Assembly (NCBI GenBank): GCA_951640195.1
Contig: OX621172.1
Location: forward strand, 1,922,001 to 1,986,000
Length of the DNA: 64,000 nt
Direction: 5' to 3'
DNA from: Porpolomopsis calyptriformis
Lineage: Eukaryota; Basidiomycota; Agaricomycetes; Agaricales; Hygrophoraceae
Shown: positions 16,404 through 25,813 of the stretch, piece by piece
Numbering within the stretch: position 1 is the stretch's first letter
How the letters are laid out: the number at the start of each line of letters is the position of its first letter
The notes under the pieces: model-generated
Told to the model about the DNA's origin: nothing
The model's database searches: none
What the model saw: the letters and a program-made list of their open reading frames with translations, nothing else
Made by a program: the position numbers and the translations under genes

Positions 16404-16558
16404 TGATACGACTGGGCTGGGCCTGAGCCCTCCAGAAGTGCAAGTTCAGAGGGAATGTGGTGGTTGCATACAAAGGCTTCTTCTCTCGTTATATGTCACA
16501 TACTACTGTAACTAGTCAAATCAAGAATTGGAGTCCAAAGGACCAATGGGTTGTATCA
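16404..16558. mobile_element. MITE-like element, copy 1 (155 bp)
   Basis: Terminal inverted repeats of about 10 bp (TGATACGACT at the left, GTTGTATCA at the right) and a perfect 4-bp duplication ACAT (16400-16403, 16559-16562). The body starts GGGCTGGGCCTGAGCCCTCC. It interrupts element A pol. No coding capacity. Confidence 0.8.
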
Positions 16559-17433
16559 ACATTTACAAGTTGGGGTCAGCCAATCAGTGATGCCTTGGAT
16601 CTTGATTGGATCCATCTTGACTTGGCCTTCAGAGATGATAACTCCAAGGTACTCCACTTGTTTCTGATCAAATTCACACTTATCAGGTTTGAGATGTAAC
16701 TTGTGTTTGCAAAGTAGGAACATGACTTTATAAACATGCCAATGGTGTGTCTCAAGATCCTTGTCAAAGATTGGTATATTGTCAATATAAATCAGTATGT
16801 GACCTTGGTGGATTTGAATATGGAAAATATTATTTATCATTGTCTGAAAGGTTGCAGGCAAGTTCATAAGTCCAAAGAACATAACCAAGGGTTCAAACAG
16901 GCCATAGTTAGTCCTGAAGGTGGCCTTATGCTTGTCGCCTTCCTTAATACAAATGTTGTTGTAGCCCCAACAGATATTTAGCTTGGTGAAATAGTGGGCA
17001 TTCTGCAGGGTGTCTATTAGTTCAGTGATCAGAGGGAGGGGATAGCAGTTCTTGATACTCATATCATTCAGTTTCTGGTAATCCTGAATTGGGTATAATC
17101 AACTGTCTTTCTTCTTGATAAAGAAGAAGGGGGAGGTGATGGGGGAGATAGAAGGGTGAATTCATCCAGTTTGGAGGTTCTCCTCAAGGAATTTGTCAAG
17201 TTGCAAATGTTTGTCCACACTAAGGGGGTAGATCTTGCAATCGAGCTTCTCTTCAGTTCCTAGAAATAGTTTAATCACATGATCCCAAGGGTGAGGGGGC
17301 AGTAGCTCATCAAAGTCTTTCTTGGTAAAGATGTCTTGGAATTTATGAAGATAATTGGGGATGGTGTCTTTCCAATTGCGATTCTTCTTCTATGTCTTAG
17401 CAGCTTTGATCACAAGTCCCTGTGACTTAGTGG

Positions 17434-18957: not shown

Positions 18958-18962
18958 TAATT

Positions 18963-19330
18963 TGTCACGGACACTTTTTCCTTTTTCCTTTTAGTCATAC
19001 TTGATCAGTCTACATTCCGTTTATCCTTCCGCTTTACCGTTTTATATATAGATTGATCACATGTACCTTCCTTCCGACTCTTTCACGAGTCACATTCCGT
19101 TTCCGCTATTGTTTTCGTGACTCTTCACTAGTCACATTCCGGATTCCGCTTTGTAATCGTACACACGACTGACTCATGGCGACTCAGGTAGTTAGTATAT
19201 AAAGCCTGATCTTTAGTCAGTAAGTTAAGTTCGATTCCTAGTTAGCTCCCCCACTCTTTAGTCGAATTCCATTTCCCTCATCAGCCCCTCCAACGCGAGA
19301 AGTAAAACCTTCAACTACTGAATCATAACA
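18963..19330 (+). repeat. Element B 5' LTR
   Basis: 368 bp. TATATAAA at 19196-19203 is the likely promoter. The inferred transcript start at 19227 lies 31 bp after the first T of the TATA box. Confidence 0.95.
19196..19227 (+). promoter_or_regulatory. Element B LTR promoter (TATA box to inferred start)
   Basis: TATATAAA at 19196-19203. The start is placed at 19227 because the 11 bases from there are the complement of the priming site; this is an inference. Confidence 0.65.
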
Positions 19331-19331
19331 A

Positions 19332-19342
19332 GAATCGAACTT
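19332..19342 (+). other. Element B primer-binding site for self-priming
   Basis: GAATCGAACTT, one base after the 5' LTR, is the exact reverse complement of AAGTTCGATTC inside the LTR at 19227-19237. No TGG-starting tRNA 3'-end complement is present here. The 11-nt length and one-base gap match the Tf1 self-priming plan. Confidence 0.75.
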
Positions 19343-19505
19343 CCTTCTTGCGCATCAAACTACCTCCACTCTGGATCCTACTGAAGACTTAACAAGGTCA
19401 ATCTTCTCATCCGCAGATTCAGATACTCCCTTTCAACCTATAGTATTCCAAACCCCTGCACAATCCATCATCCCCCTTTCCCCCTCGTCATCATCATTGA
19501 CATCA

Positions 19506-20921
19506 ATGTCTCAACAAGAATATGAAGCTGATCAAAGTGTTCCCGCACCCGGACCCAGTAACATTCCCCCTACCATTCAAGAAGAAGAAGAAGACGTCGT
19601 CCCATTCAACATCGAACAAGAGCTCAAAGATCTAAGAGCACAAATCGATCAATTCCGTGGCTGGTACTACAACGAAGTCGACGTCAATGATGAGCTCCGA
19701 AAGGAATTAAAAGCTCTCAAAGAAAGCCGACGAGAAGACTCAGAACCAACTACCCCTCCCTCACGACGACGATCTGTACTTCGGGGACCTGGACTTTCTC
19801 CCTCAAATCCTTTCGTTTACCCTGTAAGAAGAACCGAATCCGTCCAACCTCCATCCCAACCAACCTTTCCCACTCAACTACCCACCCAGACAACTGCTCC
19901 CCCTACATTTCCAGCCCCCACCAAAATCAAAATCGCCGACCCAACCGAATACGATGGAACTTCCGAGAAGCTTGAAGACTTCATTCACCAATGTCGACTC
20001 AACTTTGTGGTCAAGGACTACAACGACAAACAGAAAATTGTCTACATGCTCTCTTATCTCGGTGACGGCAATCCACGGGCTTGGGGACGACTGTTCACGG
20101 AAGGAGTTGATAGAACGAGGAATTTCGTATGGGACTACGCAACATTTTTGGATGATTTCAGGGAAGCTTTCGGAAGGATTAACCCAGCGGCGAAGGCGCA
20201 GATTGAGCTAGAAAAGGTGAAGATGACAGGAACGATAGAAGACTACAACCTTCGGTTCATGCAACACGCAGCAAGAACTGAGTACAACGAGACCGCTCTA
20301 CTTCGGTTTTACAAAGCCGGACTCCCCCAGCCAATCCGAACGCGGATTTACTCGATGGACAACATGCCATCGACCTTGCTGGACTGGACGACGAAAGCGG
20401 CCCAGTTCGAAGAACAGTACCAGGAGCAACGAGCTGAACAAGCGTTGTGGTCAAGTCGAGATCAAAAAGGAAAGAAGTCTGAAGCCAAATCGAATCCCCG
20501 AGGAAACCCTTCCCACTCCACCACCACCATCACTTCATCCCCGATCAAACAAGAATCGAGAGAAGCCTCTCTCAAGACAGCGAAACAAGACAACTCCTCC
20601 ATCACTTGCTACAACTGTGGCAAAAAGGGACATTACGCCAATGAATGTCGAAGCCCACGTGCTGAAGACGTTCCGGCATGTCAAGAATCCTCAACTTCTA
20701 CTCAAGGAAAAGGAGGAAATCGCGGTCGAGGCAAAGGACGAAATGTCCGAACAATCAATCGGGTTGATACAGAAGAATCGGAAGTGCGGATAGAGGAAGT
20801 ACCGGAGGATGATGAAAAAAGGACGGCAAAAGACGACCTGAAGGATATGGGAATCGCGAATTGGGACAAGGAGAGACGGGCTGCGCTAGCTCGAGCGTTA
20901 AAAGAGCAAAAGGATTTTTAA
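19506..20921 (+). CDS. gag: Element B Gag, 471 aa
   Basis: From ATG 19506 to TAA 20919-20921. A disordered acidic N-terminus with a short coiled coil (ELKDLRAQIDQF, about residues 35-80) is followed by a Ser/Pro/Thr-rich linker. A Ty3-type capsid domain spans about 140-310 (EYDGTSEKLEDFIHQC, LSYLGDGNPRAWGRLF, ARTEYNETALLRFYKAGLP). One CCHC knuckle (CYNCGKKGHYANEC, about 368-381) and a charged tail follow. It forms the particle shell and binds element RNA. Pol overlaps it in the -1 frame; slip sites could be the A-run at 20815 or the TTT-TAA end at 20916-20921. Confidence 0.93.
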   Translation: MSQQEYEADQSVPAPGPSNIPPTIQEEEEDVVPFNIEQELKDLRAQIDQFRGWYYNEVDVNDELRKELKALKESRREDSEPTTPPSRRRSVLRGPGLSPSNPFVYPVRRTESVQPPSQPTFPTQLPTQTTAPPTFPAPTKIKIADPTEYDGTSEKLEDFIHQCRLNFVVKDYNDKQKIVYMLSYLGDGNPRAWGRLFTEGVDRTRNFVWDYATFLDDFREAFGRINPAAKAQIELEKVKMTGTIEDYNLRFMQHAARTEYNETALLRFYKAGLPQPIRTRIYSMDNMPSTLLDWTTKAAQFEEQYQEQRAEQALWSSRDQKGKKSEAKSNPRGNPSHSTTTITSSPIKQESREASLKTAKQDNSSITCYNCGKKGHYANECRSPRAEDVPACQESSTSTQGKGGNRGRGKGRNVRTINRVDTEESEVRIEEVPEDDEKRTAKDDLKDMGIANWDKERRAALARALKEQKDF

Positions 20922-23900
20922 TCCGGCCAAGTGCTAAATGCCCAAGCACTTTGGCTGTGTCCCATGTATGTGTACCACCATCTATGAAAAGTTTTCGTTT
21001 TCTTGGCACACTTGAACAGGGCAAAGGCGCTCTCGAATTCTATTTTTGGATCACGAGTGCCGACAATCTTCGACGAGTGGCTATCATAGCACTCATTGAC
21101 TCTGGCGCCTCAGGGAATTTTATTGACGAAGCATTCGTTCGTCAAATGGAGATATCGACCTATCTGTTGGATGAGGTTGTACCGGTACGAAACGCTGATG
21201 GTTCCGAGAACCGAGGAGGTCCCATCACGCATGACACAGACCTGTTTATCGAGGCACCAGATCTATCTTTTCGAGAACGAATCCGGTTGGAGGTCACCAA
21301 CTTAGGAAGAAAACAACAGGTTATCCTCGGCTTCCCATGGCTTTTGCGACACAACCCCACCATCAATTGGACAAAAGGCACCTTAACTTTTGCGTCTGGT
21401 GACACGCTGTTCAGTAGTATGCGAGTCGGAGTGTTGCCCCCACAGGAAGAACTCTACGTCTTTGATTCGAGTCTGAAACATGACTCCTTTATCCGTTTGG
21501 TCGGAATTGACCATTCCCGACCAGTTTCCATTGAGGAGGACATCAAATCCTTCATTCCCAGTCGTTATCACAATTTCTGGCGTGTTTTCCATACCGCAGA
21601 ATTTGACAAACTTCCTCCTCGACGTTCCTTTGATCATGCGATCAACCTCTACCCGAACACCAAATTTCAAGTCAGAAAACTCTATCCCCTTTCCCCCTAT
21701 GAACAGGTGGAACTTAACAAGTTTATTGACGAAAATCTCAGAACAGGTCGAATACGTCCATCGAAATCACCACAAGCTGCTCCTTTCTTCTTTGCGAAAA
21801 AGGCTGAAGAGATCAATGCTAAAGGTCTCAGTGCTGGTCTACGTCCCATCCAGGACTATCGTTACATCAACTCGAAAACCATTCCTGATCGTTATCCCCT
21901 CCCCCTTCTGTCGGAAATTCTCCAAGTGCCGAAGCTTGCTACTGCTTCGCTCTTCACTGTCATCGATATCCGATGGGGATTTAACAACATACGACTCAAG
22001 GAAGGCGACGAATGGAAAGCAGCCTTCATCACCAATCGAGGACTCTTCGAACCGACCGTTATGTTCTTTGGACTACGAAACTCCCCAGCATCTTTTCAAC
22101 GAATGATAGACGTTCTCTTTAAACCTGTTCTGGACTCTGGCTGTGTTCACATCTATATCGACGACATTCTCATTATGGGCGACACCCCCGAAGAAATCCG
22201 CCACTGGACTGACGAAACCCTTAAACTCATGGAGAAGAATCAACTATCTGCCAAGCCTGTCAAATGCCAAATGGAGAAGACCTCTGTTACATACCTTGGT
22301 ACAATCATCAGTAAAGGTCAACTCGCTATCAATCCAAAAAAGGTGGACGCCATTATCAATTGGCCGACACCCCAAAAACTACGAGATCTCCAATCCTTCC
22401 TTGGCACCACCAACTTCTGGCGATGTTATATCAAAAGTTTCTCCTCAGTCGTTCGTCCCCTCTGTGGCCTTTTACGGAAAGACCAACCTTGGGATTGGTC
22501 TCCTTTGTGTCAAAAAGCCTTTGAACAACTCAAATATCTTGTCACTACAGCCCCTGTCCTTCTTACCCCACGGCCAGACCTTCCTTACCTCTTGGAGACC
22601 GATGCCTCTGATTTCGGTATTGGCGCGGTCTTATCTCAGAAACACGACAATGGTTGGCACCCTGTTGGCTTTTTCTCGAAGTCCCTACTCCCTGCCGAGT
22701 ACAATTATCCTACCCATGACCTGGAGATGCTTGCGATCATCACTTCCCTCAAGTATTGGCGCTATCTTTTAGAAGGCGCAAGGGATACTGTATTGATAAA
22801 AACAGACAATTTGGCGCTCAAGTACTTCATGCAGAACAGATCCCTCTCCAGACGACAAGCACGTTGGATGGAATACTTAGGCAGATTCGACTTCAAGATC
22901 GAATACTCTCCTGGAGTCAAGAACAAAGCCAATGGACTCTCCCGCCGACCCGATCACCGTCGTACAGAAAAAGAAGAACTAGAAGGCAAAGCCCTCCTCC
23001 CCCCCGAACGCTTCATCAATGCTATCATTTCCATGTCCGAACCCTCTTTCATGTCAAGACTTCGCTTCCCCAACTTCAATCAAATCCCAGAGGAGATTCG
23101 CATCAAATTATCCGATTCCTCTTCCGGCTACTCCTTCACTGATGGAATTGTGAGAGATGCAGGAGATCGTATTGTCGTGCCAGCGGACGTATCACTACGC
23201 ACAGAGATAATTCGATTGACCCACTCCCTACCCCATGGAGGCCATCCCGGAATCGAGAAGACACGTGAGCTTGTGTTGCGGAACTACACCTGGAGTAGTG
23301 CTGCCCCTGAAATCCGTGTATTCGTATCATCCTGTCCGACCTGCCAACAAGTCAAGCTCTATCCCTCGAAGCCTGCAGGTCTCCTAGAACCTATTCCCCC
23401 TTCGTCTCGACCTTGGGAAGAAATCACCGCCGATCTAATCGTGGAACTCCCCCAATCATCTGGCTACGATGCTGTCTTAGTCGTTGTTAATCGTTTTACC
23501 AAACGCGCTCACTTTATCCCGACGATATCGAATATTTCTGCAGAAGGAGTTGCAAAACTCTTCAGGGACAACATATGGAAACACCACGGCTGGCCAAAGA
23601 AGATCATAACTGATCGAGGAACTCAGTTCGCCTCCAAATTCGCGAAAGCTCTCAATACTCATTTGGGAATCATCTCCGGTCTATCCACCGCTTATCACCC
23701 CCAAACTGATGGTCAAATGGAACGCACCAATCAAGAACTTGAACAATACCTTCATTTATATACAAACTTTATGCAAGACGATTGGTCCAACTGGCTATCC
23801 CCAGCTGAATTCGCGTATAATAACCGACAACACTCCTCAATGAAACACACTCCCTTTTACCTTGACACTGGCCAACATCCCTTCGTCCCGTCTATCCCTG

Positions 23901-24469
23901 CGACCCCTACTTCCAATCCCGCAGCAGATGCCTTTCACGATCATCTCACAGAAGTCCGTAAAGAAGCCACAAAAGCTCTAGAAGCAACGGCCGAAACTAT
24001 GAAACGCTTCGCAGATCGTAAATGGAAAGATACCCAACTCCAAATAGGTCAATTTGTTTATCTTGATACCCGTAACTTAAAAACAGGTCGTCCAACCCTC
24101 AAACTTGATGTCCGACGCACTGGACCATTCAAAGTTCTAGAAAAAATCGGAAAAGTCTCTTATCGCCTGGCCCTTCCTTTATTATGGAAAATACACGACG
24201 TCTTTCACGTTTCACTCCTGAGACCCGCTAATATTAACTCCGATCTCCATCCAGAGGAAGTAGATGATAATCTCCGTCCACCTCCGGATGTCATTCAAGA
24301 GAAAGAGGAATACGAGGTTGAACGAATTCTCCAACACCACGGGTCTACCCAACGTCGTACGTATTTGGTTAAATGGGTCGGCTATCCCATTGAAGAAGCA
24401 ACTTGGGAGCCGAAGAAGAATCTCCTCCATGCGAAAGAACGAATTCTAGAATATGAACACTCAATTTAA
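20861..24469 (+). CDS. pol: Element B Pol polyprotein, about 1200 aa
   Basis: Open in the -1 frame relative to Gag, from at least 20861 (no ATG needed if made by frameshifting). Residue numbers count from 20861. Aspartic protease LIDSGASGNFID at about 77; RT about 260-470 with YIDD at 432-435; RNase H with ETDASDFGIGAVLSQ at about 578. Integrase zinc finger (H..H, CPTCQQ) at about 785-828. Integrase catalytic Asp at about 858, Asp at about 918 (TDRGTQF) and Glu at about 954 (GQMERTNQE) have the D-35-E spacing. A C-terminal chromodomain occupies about 1149-1200 (YEVERILQHH, YLVKWVGYPIEEATWEP). All catalytic residues are intact. Chromodomain integrases of this group are known to direct insertion to H3K9-methylated chromatin. 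Confidence 0.95.
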   Translation: MGQGETGCASSSVKRAKGFLIRPSAKCPSTLAVSHVCVPPSMKSFRFLGTLEQGKGALEFYFWITSADNLRRVAIIALIDSGASGNFIDEAFVRQMEISTYLLDEVVPVRNADGSENRGGPITHDTDLFIEAPDLSFRERIRLEVTNLGRKQQVILGFPWLLRHNPTINWTKGTLTFASGDTLFSSMRVGVLPPQEELYVFDSSLKHDSFIRLVGIDHSRPVSIEEDIKSFIPSRYHNFWRVFHTAEFDKLPPRRSFDHAINLYPNTKFQVRKLYPLSPYEQVELNKFIDENLRTGRIRPSKSPQAAPFFFAKKAEEINAKGLSAGLRPIQDYRYINSKTIPDRYPLPLLSEILQVPKLATASLFTVIDIRWGFNNIRLKEGDEWKAAFITNRGLFEPTVMFFGLRNSPASFQRMIDVLFKPVLDSGCVHIYIDDILIMGDTPEEIRHWTDETLKLMEKNQLSAKPVKCQMEKTSVTYLGTIISKGQLAINPKKVDAIINWPTPQKLRDLQSFLGTTNFWRCYIKSFSSVVRPLCGLLRKDQPWDWSPLCQKAFEQLKYLVTTAPVLLTPRPDLPYLLETDASDFGIGAVLSQKHDNGWHPVGFFSKSLLPAEYNYPTHDLEMLAIITSLKYWRYLLEGARDTVLIKTDNLALKYFMQNRSLSRRQARWMEYLGRFDFKIEYSPGVKNKANGLSRRPDHRRTEKEELEGKALLPPERFINAIISMSEPSFMSRLRFPNFNQIPEEIRIKLSDSSSGYSFTDGIVRDAGDRIVVPADVSLRTEIIRLTHSLPHGGHPGIEKTRELVLRNYTWSSAAPEIRVFVSSCPTCQQVKLYPSKPAGLLEPIPPSSRPWEEITADLIVELPQSSGYDAVLVVVNRFTKRAHFIPTISNISAEGVAKLFRDNIWKHHGWPKKIITDRGTQFASKFAKALNTHLGIISGLSTAYHPQTDGQMERTNQELEQYLHLYTNFMQDDWSNWLSPAEFAYNNRQHSSMKHTPFYLDTGQHPFVPSIPATPTSNPAADAFHDHLTEVRKEATKALEATAETMKRFADRKWKDTQLQIGQFVYLDTRNLKTGRPTLKLDVRRTGPFKVLEKIGKVSYRLALPLLWKIHDVFHVSLLRPANINSDLHPEEVDDNLRPPPDVIQEKEEYEVERILQHHGSTQRRTYLVKWVGYPIEEATWEPKKNLLHAKERILEYEHSI

Positions 24470-24599
24470 ACGGCGACCAAATCACTCTTTCACGGTATCA
24501 ACTCCCCTCGTTTATATTTTCACTTCATCACCTTTCCAAACTCCGACACATCCTTATAATCTCTTTCATCTCCGTCTTTCACTAGAAATCGACATCACT

Positions 24600-25178
24600 A
24601 TGCCCGCAGAACGCTCACACCAAACCGCTCGCAAATCAACCGGTGGTCGTCCACCCCGCGCTCCTCATATGTCCACTGGAGGACAACCCCCTCGCCGCGC
24701 TCCCCCTCCGCTCGCTTCCACCTCCTCCGCCTACGGTGAAGCTGAGCTCGCCGGACAACTCTGGCAACACAACCGACGCGCGCGTAACCGGGACCTTCCT
24801 ATATGGCCAGAGGAAATCATCGCACCACCCATCCCACCCGAGCAAATCATTGAGTCGCTACAGAAGGACGTCGAATACTACAAAAGTGAAATCGCGAGAC
24901 TGAACGAAGAGCTGTACAATCAAGGAATAAGTTTAGATGGAAAGAGAAGAGCGAGTGAGTATTGGCGAGAACAGGCCAAACACTGGGAGACGAAATATGA
25001 GGAAGTCGTAAAGGTACTTCCCCATCTTGATTCCCCGGTCCTTCCTGTTTTCCCAGGTCCGCTCATCGTTCCCCCCGGTTTGTCGTCGAACCCCATCACC
25101 ATCCCCGACGACGACGATACTTCCCTGGCCGACATTATTTCCCTGTCGACCGCCATCTCCGACAAGGACTTAATCTAG
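24600..25178 (+). CDS. Element B third ORF, 192 aa: histone H3 tail-like N-terminus plus coiled coil
   Basis: ATG 24600 lies 130 bp after the pol stop; the frame is open from 24453, overlapping the end of pol. Residues 8-16 are QTARKSTGG, identical to histone H3 residues 5-13, and the following RPPR resembles H3 KAPR. Lys12 and Ser13 here correspond to H3 K9 and S10. A second degenerate copy, MSTGGQPPRR, follows at about 24-33. Residues about 80-140 are a charged helical/coiled-coil stretch (EQIIESLQKDVEYYKSEIAR); the C-terminus has ITIPDDDD, which could be a SUMO-interaction motif (inference). No membrane segment, so not an envelope protein. I suggest a histone-mimic accessory protein that could bind or engage H3K9 readers and writers; this is untested. 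Confidence 0.75.
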   Translation: MPAERSHQTARKSTGGRPPRAPHMSTGGQPPRRAPPPLASTSSAYGEAELAGQLWQHNRRARNRDLPIWPEEIIAPPIPPEQIIESLQKDVEYYKSEIARLNEELYNQGISLDGKRRASEYWREQAKHWETKYEEVVKVLPHLDSPVLPVFPGPLIVPPGLSSNPITIPDDDDTSLADIISLSTAISDKDLI

Positions 25179-25258
25179 TCCTTCACCTCCTCCGCACCCT
25201 TCAACACTCTCAAAGCCGCCTCGAATTTCGGGACGAAATTCCTTTTAGTGTGGGTGTA

Positions 25259-25626
25259 TGTCACGGACACTTTTTCCTTTTTCCTTTTAGTCATACTTGA
25301 TCAGTCTACATTCCGTTTATCCTTCCGCTTTACCGTTTTATATATAGATTGATCACATGTACCTTCCTTCCGACTCTTTTACGAGTCACATTCCGTTTCC
25401 GCTATTGTTTTCGTGACTCTTCACTAGTCACATTCCGGATTCCGCTTTGTAATCGTACACACGACTGACTCATGGCGACTCAGGTAGTTAGTATATAAAG
25501 CCTGATCTTTAGTCAGTAAGTTAAGTTCGATTCCTAGTTAGCTCCCCCACTCTTTAGTCGAATTCCATTTCCCTCATCAGCCCCTCCAACGCGAGAAGTA
25601 AAACCTTCAACTACCGAATCATAACA
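25259..25626 (+). repeat. Element B 3' LTR
   Basis: 368 bp, two differences from the 5' LTR. It is preceded by the TTCGGGACGAAATTCC block and GTGTGGGTGTA, a weak purine-rich tract at the usual second-strand priming position. Confidence 0.93.
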
Positions 25627-25813
25627 TAATTGGACCAGGTTGTGGGGAGAGGGGGTGTCATGAAATTGGCGTTCACTCTATTAAAATTCCTCTCTTTTCT
25701 TCGTTCTTTTCTTTTCTTTCTTATACCAATTCTTTTGGGAGGAAGGCTGTCTTTATTGGCAGCGGAAACTACTTGTACAAAAGGAGGAGTCCATGTCTGA
25801 CTAGCTAATTATA

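Follow-up and report, generated by a model that had tools for sequence, protein, structure and literature searches.

Most descriptions of histone mimicry concern viruses, a few concern host proteins, and the case has often been made from motifs of four residues (in part after passages of PMC10208167). The viral mimics of the H3 tail named in those passages are influenza NS1 (ARSK), adenovirus protein VII (AKKRS), and SARS-CoV-2 ORF8 (ARKS), and the mimicry of ORF8 is disputed (PMC10833455). Among host enzymes, G9a and GLP carry H3-like sites that are automethylated and then become binding sites for HP1 (excerpts of PMC9768651). Here, we describe ORF3, the third open reading frame of a retrotransposon in the basidiomycete Porpolomopsis calyptriformis. 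Like the three viral proteins, ORF3 places a short linear copy of the H3 tail in a non-histone protein, but it differs from them in its nine identical residues, its 67 copies, the pN/pS test applied to them, the copying of the K9 site, and the chromodomain-encoding retrotransposon that carries it. With G9a and GLP it has in common that a non-histone protein bears an H3-like site; theirs is methylated and then bound by HP1 in a host enzyme, whereas ORF3 belongs to a mobile element. Among the titles and abstract openings listed from open PubMed Central papers, we found no description of a retrotransposon-encoded H3 mimic. Histone mimicry as such is known; here its carrier is an element with a chromodomain of its own.

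The element itself is of a familiar type. Chromoviruses, among them MAGGY and the Tcn1 clade, have LTRs, a Gag with a CCHC knuckle, and a Pol in the order protease, reverse transcriptase, RNase H, integrase, and chromodomain, and all of these recur in the present element; what MAGGY and the Tcn1 clade do not share with it is a conserved third gene bearing an H3-tail mimic. A survey of fungal chromoviruses mentions an additional ORF of unknown function in a figure legend, and the passages available of that survey contain no mimic (PMC2864245).

The window, that is, the whole stretch of 64,000 nucleotides that was analyzed, contains a young LTR chromovirus (Ty3/Gypsy, Metaviridae) at 18963-25626, with its LTRs and genes on the forward strand. 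Its 368-nt LTRs (18963-19330 and 25259-25626; TG...CA) differ at 2 of 368 positions and are flanked by the target-site duplication TAATT (18958-18962 and 25627-25631). Gag (19497-20921), with a Ty3 capsid and a CCHC knuckle, lies in a frame that opens with TTG at 19497 and has its first in-frame ATG at 19506. Pol (20861-24469) overlaps the last part of the Gag gene in a different frame, encodes protease, reverse transcriptase, RNase H, and integrase, and ends, as an earlier note on this DNA had proposed, in a chromodomain C-terminal to the integrase (24311-24457; PF00385, 49.6 bits). This domain resembles those of Oxpecker, CDYL, HP1, and Rhino, whose structures have been solved, and its aromatic cage (Y/W/Y, assigned after the relevant passages of PMC3350952) is complete, each of the three aromatics being kept in 56 of the 57 stop-free copies defined below. 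Beside the element, at 16556-17062 on the reverse strand, is what looks by eye like a reverse transcriptase fragment of a different retroelement.

The third ORF, which follows Pol and which the same note had reported, begins with an ATG at 24600 and has a stop ending at 25178, giving a protein of 192 aa that is separated from the Pol stop (24469) by 130 nt and is not fused to Pol. An upstream start was considered and rejected, since 13 of the 57 stop-free copies have an in-frame stop within the 43 codons before this ATG, which makes 24600 the likely start of ORF3. The hexamer TTATAA stands 46 nt before the ATG (24554-24559) and also precedes ORF3 in the sister elements L111, L110, and L112, at distances of 45, 105, and 103 nt, respectively; it is a possible internal promoter.

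In an AlphaFold2 model built from 18 sequences, residues 1-43 form a disordered tail, residues 44-64 a helix, and residues 80-139 (24837-25016) a second helix of 60 residues, which is followed by a loose acidic end. The model as a whole has a mean pLDDT of 66.7 and a pTM of 0.31, but the long helix, which is probably a coiled coil, reaches means of 87-98 per block of ten over residues 81-140, as against 42-47 over residues 1-40. The tail is basic, with a net charge of +6 over residues 1-43. Near the C terminus lies the acidic stretch ITIPDDDD (25095-25118), which we take to resemble a SUMO-interacting motif. The predicted tail and single long helix do not amount to a histone fold. An env-like protein was also considered and set aside, as ORF3 has no transmembrane segment and its highest 19-residue Kyte-Doolittle mean is 1.23.

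No homolog in other species emerged when proteins were searched with the ORF3 of the window, that of a sister family (family B, below), or a six-row alignment, and the genome collections covered are prokaryotic. In IMG/VR, three matches to the motif pattern were taken as chance, as the surrounding ORFs show no H3 mimic or retroelement protein, and a Pol search of the same collection gave no match. The absence of any Pfam family and of any database homolog is what one would expect if ORF3 were not a real protein and its motif were a product of chance or annotation. However, 57 of the 91 copies read are full-length and stop-free, pN/pS over ORF3 is about 0.2, an ORF stands in the same post-Pol position in sister families, and the long helix is well predicted; we consider an artefact very improbable.

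The mimic itself lies at 24621-24647, where residues 8-16 of ORF3, QTARKSTGG, are identical to H3 residues 5-13, including the K9-S10 pair, so that K12 of ORF3 corresponds to H3K9. The likeness extends to an alignment of the form R-x-x-QTARKSTGG-x-x-PR, with R at the position of H3R2, PR where H3 has P16-R17, and RPPR in the place of H3 KAPR; on all these points the earlier reading stands. By the same alignment, the lysines at H3 positions 4, 14, and 18 are absent from ORF3 (K14 is R in both the window copy and family B), and the imitated feature is then the K9 site alone, without the free N terminus that carries K4. Up to residue 88, the window copy contains no lysine but K12, and exactly one lysine occurs in residues 1-80 in 53 of the 57 stop-free copies.

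Taken singly, the matches of H3 to ORF3 in the PDB are weak, with a best E of 0.13, because the shared stretch is short, and the significance therefore rests on the copies. The identity to the H3 tail site is beyond chance: back-translated QTARKSTGG occurs at 70 places in the 33.5-Mb assembly against 0 for the reversed pattern; 67 of these are inside ORF3 copies, and at the other 3 a host H3 gene begins. The shorter ARKSTGG is found at 70 places, compared with 2 for the control.

For the analysis of selection, 92 of the 128 places in the list of ORF3 matches were selected and 91 were read (C12:1129803 was left out). Also left out were three close relatives of L079 (C4:419813, C5:732624, and C11:520555), fragments, and weak matches of another retroelement. 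In the 88 copies with an alignable motif, both threonines are kept in all 88, S10 and Q5 in 87 each, and K9 in 86, followed less strictly by A7 and G12 (83 each), G13 (82), and R8 (70). The entire QTARKSTGG is intact in 62 of these 88 and in 47 of the 57 stop-free copies. R8 is changed in 18 copies, to C or H in 17 (CGC to TGC or CAC, both CpG transitions) and to Y in one, and we read the losses to C or H as the signature of CpG decay.

The earlier note had asked for a motif kept while its surroundings drift, and had named a ratio near 1 as evidence against a mimic. Among the 57 stop-free copies, pN/pS is 0.198 for ORF3, 0.056 for the motif, and 0.204 for the rest without the motif; when sites that are CpG in either copy are removed, the motif falls to 0.025 and the rest to 0.154. 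Without CpG sites, the motif has the lowest pN of the 191 nine-codon windows, and random nine-codon sets have a pN as low in 249 of 20,000 draws, or in 43 of 20,000 when only 42 non-redundant copies are used. With CpG sites retained, it ranks 3rd of 191 by pN and 18th by ratio (4th and 12th with the 42 copies), which indicates that other parts of ORF3 are also well kept, including the helix, where pN/pS is 0.090.

Pairwise counts of this kind are not independent, and many copies are dead, points that a count of changes on a tree answers in part. When the motif columns are left out of the tree, whose support is modest (stars on 5 of 53 inner branches), the motif of the 57 copies, which exists in 21 DNA versions, requires at least 28 changes, and the 10 altered peptides require 9 of their own, which means that altered copies have hardly multiplied. 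We conclude that the reading of QTARKSTGG as a selected H3-tail mimic, held by purifying selection at the protein level, is well supported. Decay in old copies (e.g., L086-L098 and L117-L125) looks mostly like CpG transitions (R to C or H, and stops), suggesting that these copies are DNA-methylated.

The three host H3-like gene starts (L104-L106) bear on where the motif came from. In all three, apparent intron sequence follows directly after STGG; two show the frame MARTKQTARKSTGG, and L106 shows LQQQTARKSTGG instead in the frame read. An ancestor of the element may have taken up a piece of H3 exon 1 that its descendants kept largely by descent: the H3 frame runs into the apparent intron just where the match ends, and one H3 gene matches the window copy at all but 1 of 27 nt. 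Under the codon usage of the element, the probability that 26 nt contain at most one mismatch to whichever of two H3 genes is closer is 0.0046 for one try, uncorrected for the 21 versions. The other intact DNA versions lie 2-7 sites from both H3 genes, however, and low pN combined with high pS speaks against descent as the reason that the motif persists. Capture of H3 exon 1 is thus a possible origin, but it would account for origin and not for maintenance, where pN/pS disfavors it; as the whole explanation, we regard it as improbable.

Further evidence comes from the sister families. The Pol ends of the nearest chromovirus families in the genome are 54-58% identical to the window Pol (among the best 150 of 844 candidates). 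Family B, at 58%, has an ORF3 that begins MPREVRYARKSTGRRPPRG, and its only significant likeness to the window ORF3 is the mimic, MPREVRYARKSTGRRPPR. By BLASTP, residues 5-31 of the window ORF3 align with residues 3-30 of the family B protein (16/28 identical, E 1e-4), and all remaining segments have an E of 0.95 or more, so the motif stands out against drifting surroundings between families as it does within one.

The reference copy of family B reads ARKSTGxRPPR and lacks Q5-T6. Genome-wide, ARKSTG occurs 125 times, compared with 14 times for the control; among the roughly 100 places listed, 40 have the family B letters, all at codon 8 of the family B ORF3, and two others look like chance. 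On contigs C1-C10, ARKSTG is exact in 39 of the 84 listed family B copies that begin at residue 1. We read 11 family B N-termini, namely the reference, one copy at 95%, and nine picked as diverged. In the nine, R8 has become C or H without exception, A7 has become T in five, S10 has become L in three, and a stop falls within the 27 codons read in seven, the changes being of the CpG-transition type. The K equivalent to K9 is kept in all 11, but AAG contains no CpG and would survive CpG decay without selection. The evidence for selection from family B is therefore its likeness to the window family and not the counts of K.

The expectation that related elements carry the motif held for family B and failed for families A and C, whose ORF3s, read from a single copy per family (L110 and L112), contain no ARKS. 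These begin MPATRS...PSPQVAIRR[AS]GRIPSS (L110:193-801 and L112:196-801), and their type occurs at at least 150 places in the genome (150 of 291 candidates scored). The mimic is accordingly not universal in these third ORFs, and an ORF3 can serve without it, which tells against an obligatory pairing of reader and mimic, as does the eroded ARKSTG of many family B copies. If VAIRR[AS]GRIPSS is aligned with ARKSTGGRPP, the K9 position would be R. A further retroelement ends its Pol at L079:1042-1881 without a Chromo match and is followed by an ORF of 173 aa (L079:2030-2551; 14 places at 97% identity or more, 5 of these at 100%), which is related to ORF3 in the helical part only (33% over 87 residues, E 3e-10) and does not contain the QTARKSTGG motif.

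A role that needs no methylation, in which H3-like contacts serve, for example, nuclear import, or in which the tail is a basic segment that binds RNA or nucleosomes, would suit the charge and predicted disorder of residues 1-43. Nevertheless, a generic basic segment leaves unexplained why QTARKSTGG, with its one lysine, stays unchanged amid varying neighbor codons and why ARKSTG is present in the diverged family B. We consider such a role unlikely.

The earlier note had suggested that the mimic might tether integrase, titrate HP1 or the methyltransferase, or bias integration. The reading that we rank first, at a probability of roughly 0.4, is that a chromovirus lineage has in ORF3 an accessory protein that acts as a multivalent decoy for writers and readers of H3K9 methylation. 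The flexible N-terminal tail would imitate the H3K9 site, and the helix would confer multivalency. The host H3K9 methyltransferase would methylate K12, or would be held by the tail; the methylated tail would then compete with genuine H3K9me for chromodomain readers such as HP1, and the net outcome would be that the silencing of freshly expressed copies is blunted. The footprint of a chromodomain on H3 comprises residues 5-10, QTARKS, and T11-G12 are substrate contacts of SUV39-type enzymes. The ARKSTG core that the window family shares with family B extends beyond the chromodomain footprint to T11-G12. This span, the presence of a Pre-SET domain in the genome, and the precedent of G9a are the reasons for the ranking.

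The Pre-SET domain is the only one found in the assembly (G000:C14:899559-899870; intron-split ones could escape the search), and the protein containing it is a candidate SUV39/Clr4-type H3K9 methyltransferase. A search of the genome for the chromoshadow domain of HP1 gave no match, but its control was silent too. The decoy reading is also favored by the confinement of QTARKSTGG to 67 ORF3 copies and the three H3 genes, by the near-invariance of K9, S10, and both threonines and the first rank of the motif for low pN without CpG, by the poor multiplication of altered peptides, by the ARKSTGxRPPR of family B, and by the position of K12 as the only lysine of its region. Set against it are the two ORF3s of the A/C type without ARKS, a type that is itself abundant, and the inexact ARKSTG in more than half of the listed family B copies, with R8 lost in all nine diverged ones. 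Furthermore, a soluble decoy benefits all copies, which amounts to weak selection on the single element.

The integrase chromodomain of the element could likewise be a reader of the methylated tail, which leads to the main rival, namely that K12-methylated ORF3 is primarily a ligand of that domain. Such docking would tether the ORF3 coil and its partners to the integration complex, or cap the chromodomain until chromatin is met. The complete cage of this chromodomain and its similarity to the Oxpecker, CDYL, and HP1 types agree with docking, as does the coverage of the QTARKS footprint by the motif. The related post-Pol ORF that stands behind a Pol end without a Chromo match is also the one without a mimic. 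The chromodomain of MAGGY binds H3K9me2/3 (according to passages of PMC3350952). However, the chromodomain of family C scores 62.7 bits (C5:417953), and the family A Pol match spans the chromodomain stretch, yet the ORF3s of both are without ARKS; likewise, family B lacks Q5-T6 despite a chromodomain of 60.0 bits (C5:406300). Docking would also require prior methylation by the host. We hold it to be possible, though clearly less probable than the decoy. Taken together, it is probable that the element either disturbs the machinery that silences it or turns that machinery to its own use.

A weaker second copy of the motif, which the earlier note had pointed out, is real. It takes the form RKSTGGRPPRAP followed by (R/H)MSTGGQPPRRAP, in tandem with the first, and reads (R/H)MSTGGQPPRR at residues 23-32, with HMSTGG at 24666-24683 in the window copy. 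At the position equivalent to K9 it has Met in 86 of 89 copies and Ile in 3; the equivalent of A7 is P or S, and that of R8 is H in 52 of 89. [RH]MSTGG is present in 51 of the 57 stop-free copies and altered in the other 6, in 5 of which GG is changed. In the subfamily of L079 and L093, the second copy has become MSTER or MSTEQ, whereas the first is unaltered in L079 and carries a single change in L093.

The Met at this position recalls the writer-trapping H3K9M. In fission yeast, H3K9M causes stronger, SAM-dependent binding of the H3 tail to Clr4 and blocks H3K9 methylation (PMC5030085), and EZHIP has been termed an oncohistone mimic (PMC12713659). Both have, like the second copy, Met in the place of a methylatable lysine, and both impose a dominant block of methylation. 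In ORF3, unlike in these, the Met lies in a partial tandem copy, [PS]-[RH]-M-S-T-G-G, beside an intact K9 copy.

The Met, with the trapping of Clr4 as precedent, lends some support to the decoy, although the alterations in 6 of the 57 stop-free copies, including MSTER and MSTEQ, tell against it. It also allows a more specific proposal, which we regard as doubtful, that ORF3 is a retrotransposon-encoded inhibitor of heterochromatin in which the K9 copy captures and the K9M-like copy traps a SUV39/Clr4-type methyltransferase, with a multimerizing helix. If this were true, the element would disarm its silencing mark yet keep reading it through its own chromodomain, and ORF3, with QTARKSTGG and RMSTGG or HMSTGG, would be the mobile-element counterpart of EZHIP, for H3K9.

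The case is of wider interest since a transposable element combines a nine-residue mimic of the H3K9 site with a domain from a class of H3K9-methylation readers, in 67 copies that permit a direct test of selection. Chromoviruses are thought to prefer silenced chromatin. If the tail of ORF3 engages the H3K9 writer or HP1, the multiplication of chromoviruses in such chromatin would become testable with a short peptide, and transposons would be active counter-players of heterochromatin, not its passive targets.
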